Positions 1-37,466 of a DNA stretch of 64,000 bases are shown piece after piece (position 1 is the stretch's first letter; each line of letters opens with the position of its first letter). The notes under the pieces were generated by a model. That model had not been told where the DNA came from. It was given only the letters and a program-made list of their open reading frames with translations, and made no database searches. The DNA is from Halarchaeum grantii (GTDB lineage Archaea > Halobacteriota > Halobacteria > Halobacteriales > Halobacteriaceae), in NCBI RefSeq assembly GCF_014647455.2, contig NZ_BMPF01000002.1:186001-250000 (forward strand), written 5' to 3'. Both the position numbers and the translations under genes were made by a program.

Positions 1-399
1 CGGCGCGCATCCCTCGGCGGTGGAGTGCGCCGTCACTACGCGCGGTTTCCACCGCTCGTGTGAACGTGGGCCCGCACTCTCGTTCGGCCCCACGCCCGCG
101 TGGCTCCACTGCCGTCGCTGTCAGAGGATACGTGGTGCTGGTCACGCGCTCGTATTTGAGGGGTCGTGGCGAGAAAGAGCGGTTTTAGGAGAGTGGCGTC
201 CGCGCACCGAGTGGCTCGTTAGAGCCCGGTAGGTGCGAGGTTCACCGGCACGCAGTGCCGGGCCGACGAGTGAACGGAGCGCCGAAGGCGCGAAGCTCTC
301 TCGTCACTGAGCGAATCGAAGATTCGCGAGGTCTGCGAACGCGAAGCGTTCGCCTGATCCCGCGAGACGCGAAGCGTCTCGCTTACGACAAAAGGTTCT
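1..399. other. Left-edge intergenic region
   Basis: I see no convincing gene here. Short open frames exist (for example 20-232), but their translations look like frame shadows of non-coding GC-rich DNA. The left part (about 60-120) has weak complementarity between GTGGGCC- and GGCCCCAC-type stretches and could be a structured RNA tail, but nothing identifies it. The right part (245-382) is a hairpin array listed separately. The region lies downstream of the geranylgeranyl reductase gene, which ends at 400 on the minus strand. Confidence 0.5.
245..382. repeat. Array of five GNA-triloop inverted repeats
   Basis: Five perfect inverted repeats follow one another, all with a three-base loop closed by a C-G pair on the plus strand: 245-261 (7-bp arms, loop GCA), 279-291 (5 bp, GAA), 311-327 (7 bp, GAA), 335-353 (8 bp, GAA) and 362-382 (9 bp, GAA). 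Two of them contain the heptamer GCGAAGC. In the reading direction of the upstream minus-strand reductase gene the array begins about 18 nt after the stop codon and follows a CCTTTTG tract, so it may act in transcription termination or 3'-end protection. The function is inferred; the repeats are seen directly. Confidence 0.85.
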
Positions 400-1770
400 T
401 CAGTACTTCGGGTCGGCCCCGGTGACCTCGTAGACGTCCTCCATGATGTCGTCGCGCTGGGCCTGCCAGCGTTCGAGTTCGGCGGGGGAGTTCGGGTAGT
501 CCTCGTAGTGCGCGAGGAGGCGGTCGGCGGCCTGCTTCGTCTGGTACATCTGGTAGATCTGGCCCCAGTGGCCGAAGCTCTTGACCGCGACCTTGGCGGC
601 GAGCGCGGGCCCGAAGCTCGCGCTCCCGGCGTAGAGGGCCTCGCTGAGCTGTTCGCCCGGGAGGTTCGCCAGCAGGCTCATGAGGTCGTCGACGTCGACG
701 CCCGTGGAGAGGATGTTGTAGACGTCGAGGGCGGCGTAGCGCGCGCCGAAGTGGTCCATGACGCGCTCGTTGTACTCCCAGAGGGCGTCCTCGGAGAGGT
801 CGCCGTCCTCGATGCCCGCCATCGCGGCTTCGGCGGCGTACTTGCCGGCGTAGGCGGCGCCCGCGATGCCGCCGCCGGTCGTGGGGTTGACGTGGCCGGC
901 GGCGTCGCCGACGGCGACGTAGCCGGGGTGGACGGCGGAGTCGTAGGGACGCCGTGTCGGGAGGGCGGCGCCGAGTTTGTCCTTCACCTCGGCGCCCTCG
1001 AACTCCTCGCGGTTGCGGAGGTCGTCCTTGAGGTCCTCGATCATGTGCATCGGCTCCTCGTTCATCTGGAAGCCGAGGCCGGCGTTGATCTCGGTGCCGG
1101 TGCGCGGGAAGTACCAGAGGTACCCCGCGGCCCGCTTGGTGGGCTTGAAGACGAGCGCGTCCTGCCACTCGACTTCCTCGGGGACCTCGACGATCTCGCG
1201 GTAGGCCGAGCAGAACTGCGAGTAGTCGACGTTCGTGTCGAAGGTCGACTCGCTGAAGTCCGTCTTGTCCTGGAGGAGCGAGAGCGAGCCGGCGGCGTCG
1301 ACGACGATGTCGGCCTCGTACGCCACGTCCTCGCCCTTGCGTTCGGCGGTGACGCCGGTGACCCGACCCGAGCGGTCCTGCTCGACGTCCTGCACGACGG
1401 TGTCGTAGTGGAACTCGGCGCCCTGTTCCTTCGCGCCCTCGATGATGAGCTGACCGTACTTCCAGCGGTCGATGACGGCGAGCTCGCCGGGAATCGGAAT
1501 CTCGAGGACGGTGTCCTCTTGGGGGATCTCGAAGCGCCCGTGGTCGACGTCGATGTTGGTGAAGGCGGGTTCGAGCTTGGACTTCGGGATGGCGGCGGGG
1601 AAGTTCGCGGCGCCCTTGAGGGCGTCGCCGCAGGCGATGTGGCCCGCCTCCTGCTCGTCCTTTCGTTCGACGACGACGACGTCGTAGCCGGCCGCGGCGG
1701 CGGTGGCGGCGGCGTAACAACCGGAGGTGCCGGCGCCGACGACGACGAAGTCGAACTCGTGGGTACTCAT
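400..1770 (-). CDS. Geranylgeranyl reductase family FAD oxidoreductase
   Basis: The 456-residue flavoprotein belongs to the geranylgeranyl reductase family, which saturates the isoprenoid chains of archaeal ether lipids (or related prenyl compounds) at the membrane. The N-terminal FAD-binding Rossmann motif GAGTSG is at residues 12-17, and the second FAD motif VGDAAGHVNPTTGGG lies at about 286-300. It diverges from a [2Fe-2S] ferredoxin gene 109 bp away, and the two promoters share a mirrored TAAAGAGTTTT motif, which suggests co-regulation and possibly electron transfer from the ferredoxin. A second family member lies at 21728-22990. The exact substrate cannot be read from sequence. Confidence 0.9.
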   Translation of the reverse strand: MSTHEFDFVVVGAGTSGCYAAATAAAAGYDVVVVERKDEQEAGHIACGDALKGAANFPAAIPKSKLEPAFTNIDVDHGRFEIPQEDTVLEIPIPGELAVIDRWKYGQLIIEGAKEQGAEFHYDTVVQDVEQDRSGRVTGVTAERKGEDVAYEADIVVDAAGSLSLLQDKTDFSESTFDTNVDYSQFCSAYREIVEVPEEVEWQDALVFKPTKRAAGYLWYFPRTGTEINAGLGFQMNEEPMHMIEDLKDDLRNREEFEGAEVKDKLGAALPTRRPYDSAVHPGYVAVGDAAGHVNPTTGGGIAGAAYAGKYAAEAAMAGIEDGDLSEDALWEYNERVMDHFGARYAALDVYNILSTGVDVDDLMSLLANLPGEQLSEALYAGSASFGPALAAKVAVKSFGHWGQIYQMYQTKQAADRLLAHYEDYPNSPAELERWQAQRDDIMEDVYEVTGADPKY

Positions 1771-23027: not shown

Positions 23028-24125
23028 GTGAACTACGAGGAGCCGCTGTTCTTCACGGTGATGCAGTACGCGGAGGCGGCGGAGCGCGACGTCGTCGACA
23101 TGGTCTCGGGGAACCCGGACTGGGGCGCGCCCGACGGCGTCGGCGAGGGCCTCCACGACTACGCGGAGACGGGCGGCGAGGCGTTCCAGTACCCGCCGAG
23201 CGACGGCCTCCGGGAGCTCCGCGAGCGCATCGCGACGCGGCGCGGCGTCGACACCGAGCGCGTCGTCGTGACGAACGGCGGCGCGATGGCGAACACGCTC
23301 GGGATGGCGCGCGCGCTCGAACGCAGGTCGGGCGACGAGGTGCTCCTGACGGACCCCGTCTACCCTTACTACCCGGGGAAGGCAGAGATGCTCGACGGGA
23401 CGACGCGCTTCGTCCCCGTGGACGAGGAGGGCGCGCTCGATCCAGCGGACGTCCGCGCGGCGGCGAGCGACGAGACCGCGTGCATCGTCGTGAACACGCC
23501 GAACAACCCGACCGGCCGCGTCTATCGGGAGGAGACGCTGCGCGAACTCGCCGCGGTCGCCGAGGCGCACGACGCGCTCCTCGTCAGCGACGAGGTGTAC
23601 GACCACTTCGACTTCACCGGCGAGTTCACGTCGGCGCTCGCCATCGACTCCGAGCACGTCGTCGTCACCAACTCCTTCTCGAAGACGTACGCCATCACGG
23701 GCTTTCGCGTCGGCTACGCGATCCTCCCGAAGCGCGACGCGCCGGCGGCGCGCACCCGGAACATGCTGACGAACGTCGCGACGAGTCGCCCCGCGCAGGC
23801 CGCCGTCCTGCACGCCTTGAAGACGACGGACGCCGACTACCACGAGGCGAACCGCGAGCGCCTCCGCGAGCGCGTCGACTCCTTTACGGCCGCCCTCGAC
23901 GAGGCCGGCGCGGAGTACTCGACGCCCGAGGGCGCCTTCTACGTGCTCGCGAAGTTCCCCGACTACCCGGGGACGATGGCGAACGTGAAACGCCTCGTCG
24001 ACGAGGCCGGCGTCGCGGGGATGCCCGGCGAGGCGTTCGGCGACGCCCGCAGCGAGTGGCTCCGCTTCGCGCTCGTCACACCGCGCGTCGACGCCGCCGC
24101 CGAGCGCCTCGCCGAGTTCTTCTAA
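23028..24125 (+). CDS. Class I/II pyridoxal-phosphate aminotransferase
   Basis: The 365-residue fold-type I aminotransferase shows VNTPNNPTGRVY, SDEVYDHFDF and the PLP lysine in SNSFSKTYAITGFRVGY. It transfers amino groups between amino acids and 2-oxoacids (aspartate or aromatic type; specificity not readable). The start codon is GTG at 23028, giving MNYEEPLFF. A palindromic post-stop element and a large hairpin array follow its stop codon. Confidence 0.9.
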   Translation: MNYEEPLFFTVMQYAEAAERDVVDMVSGNPDWGAPDGVGEGLHDYAETGGEAFQYPPSDGLRELRERIATRRGVDTERVVVTNGGAMANTLGMARALERRSGDEVLLTDPVYPYYPGKAEMLDGTTRFVPVDEEGALDPADVRAAASDETACIVVNTPNNPTGRVYREETLRELAAVAEAHDALLVSDEVYDHFDFTGEFTSALAIDSEHVVVTNSFSKTYAITGFRVGYAILPKRDAPAARTRNMLTNVATSRPAQAAVLHALKTTDADYHEANRERLRERVDSFTAALDEAGAEYSTPEGAFYVLAKFPDYPGTMANVKRLVDEAGVAGMPGEAFGDARSEWLRFALVTPRVDAAAERLAEFF

Positions 24126-24173
24126 ACGACCTTTTGCTGCAGGCGCTTCGCGCCTTGGCAAAAGCTCGACCAC
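24126..24173. terminator. Post-stop palindromic element, copy 2
   Basis: Directly after the aminotransferase TAA, CTTTTGC (24131-24137) pairs with GCAAAAG (24158-24164) around an inner GGCGC-TTC-GCGCC hairpin (24142-24154). The words ACGACCTTTT and AAAAGCTCGACCA are shared, in the same order, with the element directly after phoU at 10061. It is probably a terminator that begins the array described next. Confidence 0.75.
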
Positions 24174-24436
24174 TGTAGGAAGCAACGCTTCCTACCGTTC
24201 AGTCAGAACGCTCCGCGTTCTGACGACAAAAGCCGTCGTCACCCCCTTCGGGGGTTCCTCGGCCTCGCCTTCGGCGAGTCAATCGGCGACCTTCCGGGCT
24301 CTCCGAGCCGCTCGGTCGCCGAACGCTTGCACCATGGATTGTTCAGCACAGCCACTGTATCGAACGTCTGCGCTGCGGTCTGCGGTCCGGCGTGCTCGCG
24401 CGAAGCGCGAGTTTCATCGGTCGCCTTCGGCGACCG
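24142..24436. repeat. Dense array of trinucleotide-loop inverted repeats
   Basis: Nine inverted repeats lie within 300 bp: 24142-24154 (loop TTC), 24175-24195 (9-bp arms, AAC), 24202-24224 (10 bp, TCC), 24221-24241 (7 bp, longer loop), 24241-24255 (6 bp, TTC), 24264-24278 (6 bp, TTC), a nested pair 24283-24322 outer (9 bp) with 24297-24309 inner (TCC), 24395-24411 (7 bp, GAA) and 24418-24436 (8 bp, TTC). All listed arms are perfect, and seven of the eight triloops give C-GNA-G on one strand. No gene is supported here; the open frames crossing the array are artefacts. Confidence 0.88.
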
Positions 24437-24550
24437 GCCTTTTTCTCCCGTGTTTTTGCGAGGAGTGGTTCCCGCAGGGCCGGCGGCCCGAGGAAACCCG
24501 ACGAGGAAAAAGACGGTGGACCTACCCCGGAGGAACCCCCTCTGTCACCT
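24437..24550. other. Upstream region of the Get3-type ATPase gene
   Basis: After the hairpin array come T-rich tracts (CCTTTTTCT near 24438 and GTTTTTGCG near 24451), which could end the upstream transcript, then a purine-rich stretch reaching the ATG at 24551. A box A is not obvious at the leaderless distance, so this gene may have a longer leader. Confidence 0.35.
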
Positions 24551-37010: not shown

Positions 37011-37466
37011 ACGTGTCCATCCGTGACGGACCGGGAAGAACGTTACCCGCGAGCGTTTCCCGCGCCTCCCCCCGGTCGCCGGCAAAACCCCGACTCGCTG
37101 CAGCGCGACCCGAATCCAGCACTCGCTTCTTTGCTTTCGCTCTGGTCTACCGCGTTTTGCGGGGCTCCTTCGACGCTGTCTCCCGTCTCCATACACGCGA
37201 GGCTTCACACACGTACGTCGGTCGTCCATCCGCCGCGCCGGTCGATACGCGAGCCACGCCGAGCGGCGTCCGCGAACAGAGCGGCCGGAAAACCCCGGCC
37301 GGTCGTCGGTTCTCTCGGTGGGGAAGCGCGAGCCTCACCACAGCGCCCGGAACCGCGGTTGCTCACGGCTCGCTGTCGCTCACCGTTCGCGTCTTCGCGG
37401 CGCCCTCGCAAACTGCTCGGTTGCCGTGTTTGCTCACGGCTCGCTGTCGCTCACCGTTCGCGTTTC
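37011..37466. other. Intergenic region with direct repeats
   Basis: No supported gene lies here. It holds a 34-bp direct repeat (37359-37392 and 37430-37463, 71 bp apart), a 10-bp palindrome AACCGCGGTT (37351-37360), and a 7-bp inverted repeat CGGCCGG (37282-37288) with CCGGCCG (37295-37301). Composition is less GC-biased than coding DNA, and open frames here are shadows. Confidence 0.6.
37359..37463. repeat. Two-copy 34-bp direct repeat
   Basis: The same 34 bases, starting TTGCTCACGGCTCGCTGTCG, occur at 37359-37392 and 37430-37463. Similarity continues weakly past the repeat into a CGCGG word in both. The copies precede a terminator hairpin and may be a remnant of an intergenic repeat family. 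Confidence 0.85.

Follow-up and report, generated by a model that had tools for sequence, protein, structure and literature searches.

A palindrome-rich, probably mobile DNA repeat of haloarchaea in two facing copies behind an aminotransferase gene of Halarchaeum grantii

REP, BIME and REPIN repeats of bacteria are dispersed extragenic palindromes that are often found near stop codons and form composite units with inverted copies (PMC12306157, PMC2817692). PATEs, which derive from IS200/IS605 elements and are mobilised when a Y1 (TnpA) transposase acts on their terminal hairpins in single-stranded DNA, are common in haloarchaea and known from Haloquadratum (PMC3119063). Here, we report a gap of Halarchaeum grantii at positions 24126-24436 of the window (the whole stretch of 64,000 nucleotides that was analysed), between an aminotransferase gene (stop codon 24123-24125) and an ArsA-type ATPase gene. 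In our judgement, the gap probably consists of a facing pair of copies of one haloarchaeal DNA repeat, which is mobile but non-autonomous and rich in palindromes. Its nearest kinds are the REP/BIME repeats and the PATEs; these are defined by their link to a RAYT or to IS605, which was not found here. Like REP/BIME/REPIN, the element is extragenic, palindromic, dispersed, close to stop codons and composite with inverted copies. Unlike them, it is a longer multi-hairpin unit (about 150-350 bp) with variable stems. Within the conserved positions of A1/A2, no GTAG or CGTC end tag was seen.

With a perfect stem of at least 5 as the criterion, eight non-overlapping triloop hairpins and one overlapping alternative (24303-24315) were counted in the gap. 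Four have the loop TTC (24141-24155, 24241-24255, 24264-24278, i.e., hp1, and 24418-24436), two have TCC (24202-24224 and 24297-24309), and the remaining two have AAC (24175-24195) and GAA (24395-24411). The hairpin at 24297-24309 is nested in a longer stem (24283-24325), and this nested pair, already pointed out in an earlier note on this DNA, is hp2 of the dispersed repeat family. Nine triloop hairpins compare with 0.51 expected from 300 Markov shuffles (maximum 3), which bears out the earlier count of nine inverted repeats packed into about 310 bp, two of them overlapping. Hairpins cover 166 of the 311 bases (mean 37, maximum 103 in 300 Markov shuffles), and the fold energy of the gap has z = -7.3 on the plus and -6.7 on the minus strand. 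Counting either strand, seven of the eight loops are of the form C-GNA-G, as had been claimed, the exception being 24175-24195 (C-AAC-G); these loops had also been placed on one strand, which does not hold, with six on the minus strand and 24395-24411 on the plus strand. UUCG-type RNA tetraloops were considered and rejected: the registers do not fit, and the loops close as C-TNC-G triloops. The structure extends past both limits of the gap, from 24124, inside the stop codon, to about 24518.

In aligned copies the common module order is A (ARACGACC-TTTTGC-hairpin-GCAAAAG), an optional B, and C (CAAAAGC...hp1-GTGAAYC-hp2-RAYGCT), with the spacers between hairpins conserved and the stems not. The gap is composed of one copy with the order A-B-C, on the plus strand, and of another, called D, on the minus strand. 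The TAA stop codon of the aminotransferase gene (24123-24125, plus) is overlapped by the 5' end of the repeat (ARACGACC), the junction falling between T24123 and A24124. Module A (24124-24172, plus) reads AAACGACC-TTTTGC-hairpin 24141-24155-GCAAAAGCTCGACCA, with a T4 tract right behind the stop codon. It is followed by module B (24173-24226, plus), a two-hairpin unit (24175-24195 and 24202-24224) that is missing in L002, L006, L007 and L029 and occurs in tandem in L008. The first part of module C (24227-24280, plus) reads CAAAAGC...CCCCC-TTC-GGGGG...GGCC-hp1, and its second part is hp2 (24281-24327, plus), which covaries and is matched by the hp2 covariance model, R1, with 73.9 bits. The build of hp2 is a variable outer stem, a conserved internal loop (YNCC / RCTC), a variable inner stem with its loop at 24302-24304, and then RAYGCT. 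Between the two facing copies lies an interior at 24328-24359 (plus); an L002 match (98%) runs over 24227-24356 and a G008 match (100%) over 24308-24359. Module D (24360-24518, minus) reads CCGTC-TTTTT-CC...hairpin 24477-24489...GCAAAAACACGGGAGAAAAAGGCC-hairpin 24418-24436-RTGAAAC-hairpin 24395-24411-GCACGC. A further copy at 195-399 (minus; R1 57.2 bits at 195-242) starts at the TGA stop of the gene at 400-1770 (minus), TGA being followed directly by AGAACCTTTTGTCG. Two minor observations concern hp2: a weak match (24 bits) lies at 37265-37311 of the window, and two G008 copies (L134, 1000-2600) have identical extra hairpins inserted inside hp2.

Because the stems differ, the hairpins had been regarded as not being copies of one repeat. 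This is wrong. BLAST found 29 places matching the gap in the host genome including the window itself (28 others), and since the greater part of the gap recurs in related form elsewhere in this genome, it is a dispersed modular repeat rather than a set of independently made hairpins. The gap also matches most relatives, some of these matches covering the aminotransferase end only. The hp2 model matches 17 times in the host genome and hits 90 of 292 sampled genomes of the class, the copy number being 7-21 in most of the host's family, and the layout is conserved across more than 100 matches. All named hits are haloarchaea except two isolated Acidimicrobiia, presumed to be chance matches. The plasmid, phage and viral collections gave no match to the element.

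The element is positioned at gene ends. Among 59 copies with module A, the end of an upstream ORF lies within -60 to +6 nt in 29, and 27 of the 59 start no more than 4 nt from the stop codon of a same-strand upstream gene; other copies begin at tRNA 3' ends. A second scan gave 36 junctions, all inside a 12-nt window by design. The stops beside these elements, with genomes pooled, are 19 TAA, 11 TAG and 6 TGA, a shift to TAA compared with the 38 window genes (6 TAA, 10 TAG and 22 TGA; Fisher p = 3e-4). Element copies bring T4-T5 directly behind the stop codon, and T-tracts are present on the opposite strand as well; only four of the 38 window genes have a TTTT no farther than 40 nt from their stop, at least two of them owing to element copies. 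This resembles the T-tract (T5C) terminators of Haloferax, for which 95% termination by a T5C stretch was reported in H. volcanii (PMC7237163), the difference being that the candidate T-tracts here ride on a dispersed hairpin element. By analogy, the T-tracts of the element may act as terminators. As a separate observation, the same genes carry an element at their 3' end in two families, with different subtypes (L003/L121 and L103/L111).

The arms remain near-perfect Watson-Crick palindromes while their sequence changes. In 24 copies of hp2, judged against slid and shuffled controls, 97.6% of the cells are paired and 62 double changes were found; it was thus rightly claimed that shape and loop class are conserved and stem sequence is not. 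Many short palindromes arise in a GC-rich genome, and chance palindromes with ordinary decay, with no behaviour as units, would be one account of the gap. However, the hairpin excess over shuffles, the shared layout and the covariation all contradict it, and we give it practically no credence. A structured 3'-UTR RNA is a more serious alternative: the hairpins would act in the transcript as a terminator, stability element or small RNA, and selection on the RNA would keep the pairing. This explanation fits the strict positioning at the 3' ends of genes, the T-tracts behind the stop codon, the covariation, and the fact that the same genes have elements in both of two families. In a functional RNA helix, G-U pairs are expected to be tolerated more than A-C. 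The pairs of hpA and hp1, however, comprise 938 Watson-Crick, 1 G-T, 3 A-C and 49 other, and hp2 has 12 G-T against 18 A-C cells over 87 distinct copies, whereas tRNA stems of genomes with the element, a small sample of 11 tRNAs, gave 92 Watson-Crick, 6 G-T, 2 A-C and 4 other. Since the helices of the element do not favour G-T over A-C, it seems that pairing is maintained in the DNA, via selection on folded DNA or copying from arm to arm; for perfect arms free of wobble pairs, arm-to-arm copying is no worse an explanation than selection. Loops are found in either orientation, the element is present or absent between congeners, and no credible Rfam match was obtained on the element, the flanking loci giving tRNAs only. 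All of this speaks against the RNA, which we regard as unlikely. The earlier suggestion of a process that generates or keeps hairpins is supported in part, in that the pairing looks like a matter of DNA; selection and a generating mechanism are not separable here. Read along the element, 54 of 101 triloops in the element zone are C-TNC-G and 15 are C-GNA-G, so the GNA form is on the bottom strand in most of its hairpins.

Besides being dispersed, modular and placed at gene 3' ends, the element is gained or missing as a whole when species are compared, and near-identical copies of it occupy unrelated sites in other genera. Such copies, 155-182 bp long and 95-100% identical with unrelated flanks, were found in G067, G139 and G253, and copies 92-95% identical occur in different families. 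Most of the recent copies have RTAN as the 5' flank. At the L029 site, the one clean empty-site comparison and for the 5' junction only, the gene aligns as far as its TGA stop in three congeners, which have no element; the host copy starts inside the stop codon, i.e., TTC-TGA becomes TTC-T followed by AAACGACC, turning TGA into TAA. In the gap described here, three of four congeners share the element, and it was lost or replaced in the fourth; other genera have no element at this site. Between the orthologues L133 and L045, an indel coincides exactly with module B, and the hpA stem is new yet still perfect. Stems replaced and hairpin pairs gained or lost as units in orthologous copies are in line with the earlier note on conserved shape. 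Please note that inheritance and function could be why the same genes carry an element across families, which would count against mobility. In several respects the element resembles a PATE: it is short and non-coding, the recent copies are too short for a transposase gene, palindromes lie close to both ends (hpA near the 5', hp2 near the 3' end), and no terminal inverted repeats or target duplication were seen when the flanks of near-identical copies were read by eye. It differs in its optional hairpin units, in its place at gene 3' ends, and in its ends, which are unlike those of the tested TnpA/TnpB elements (a comparison with the Haloquadratum PATE sequences outside its scope). R1 is absent from the ends of all 42 TnpA or TnpB loci, the one strong R1 hit near them (L059) adjoining a truncated TnpB relic, and the gap has no ends in common with TnpB/TnpA loci of the host and relatives. 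A match to the Y1 family (PF01797) is lacking in G002, G008, G016, G019, G020 and G022, of which the last five hold 9-21 element copies each; this also separates the element from REP, whose partner is a RAYT of the Y1 family. Neither search, of the 42 loci for shared ends or of these element-rich genomes for Y1, revealed a mobilising enzyme. We consider an IS200/IS605-derived element moved by Y1 on these grounds quite improbable.

A two-ended transposon with terminal repeats was also rejected: at several loci each of the facing copies starts where its own gene ends, the two genes being convergent, and they therefore look like two elements. Yet facing pairs (L061, L078, L143, L144, L146 and L181) surround 28-1383 bp of interior sequence, whose GC content is mostly below that of the flanks (0.43-0.66 vs 0.65-0.72) and which carries unrelated small ORFs, some of them lipoprotein-like.

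For the mobile, non-autonomous repeat, the following mechanism can be envisaged. A putative recombinase or transposase would recognise the folded single strand, possibly by the C-GNA-G loops with their preference for the bottom strand and by the conserved internal loop of hp2, and would attach the element by its 5' end, ARACGACC, to the ends of genes, in many cases restoring a stop codon as TAA or TAG. Copies may persist at gene ends because T-tracts on both strands can terminate transcription. The arms may change in concert because one arm would be corrected from the other by hairpin-templated copying in the course of replication or repair, presumably nucleated by the very stable GNA loops; as DNA, GNA mini-hairpins are unusually stable (PMC4686876). 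We also entertain, at low probability, a haloarchaeal recombination system that reads folded bottom-strand DNA (GNA-loop hairpins, free stems) and inserts units at the stop codons of genes and the ends of tRNAs; these units would also be the joining sites in toxin-antitoxin-like cassette arrays. The element is a natural case in which the shape of DNA, not its sequence, is preserved over more than 100 copies, and counting wobble pairs is a simple test that separates DNA from RNA constraint. It offers an explanation for the hairpin-rich 3' gene ends of haloarchaea and a starting point toward finding the enzyme that moves these hairpin elements.

In working principle only, the element is also like integron attC sites: it follows the stop codon, combines a conserved fold with variable stems and has a strand preference, and in some families it lies inside arrays of toxin-antitoxin-like genes. 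Unlike attC, its hosts include ordinary chromosomal genes, and no R-box pair is defined. Haloarchaeal integrons were considered as a candidate and set aside, the archaeal integron paper making no mention of haloarchaea. In other haloarchaeal families (L203, L204, L205, L206 and L207), the element was seen within arrays of small genes resembling toxin-antitoxin pairs, with a repeat of about 50 bp (CCACCGAGCCTACTAGTAGAAACTCGCYCGGTAGTGTTCCGGGCGTACA) between the genes, an integron-like layout.
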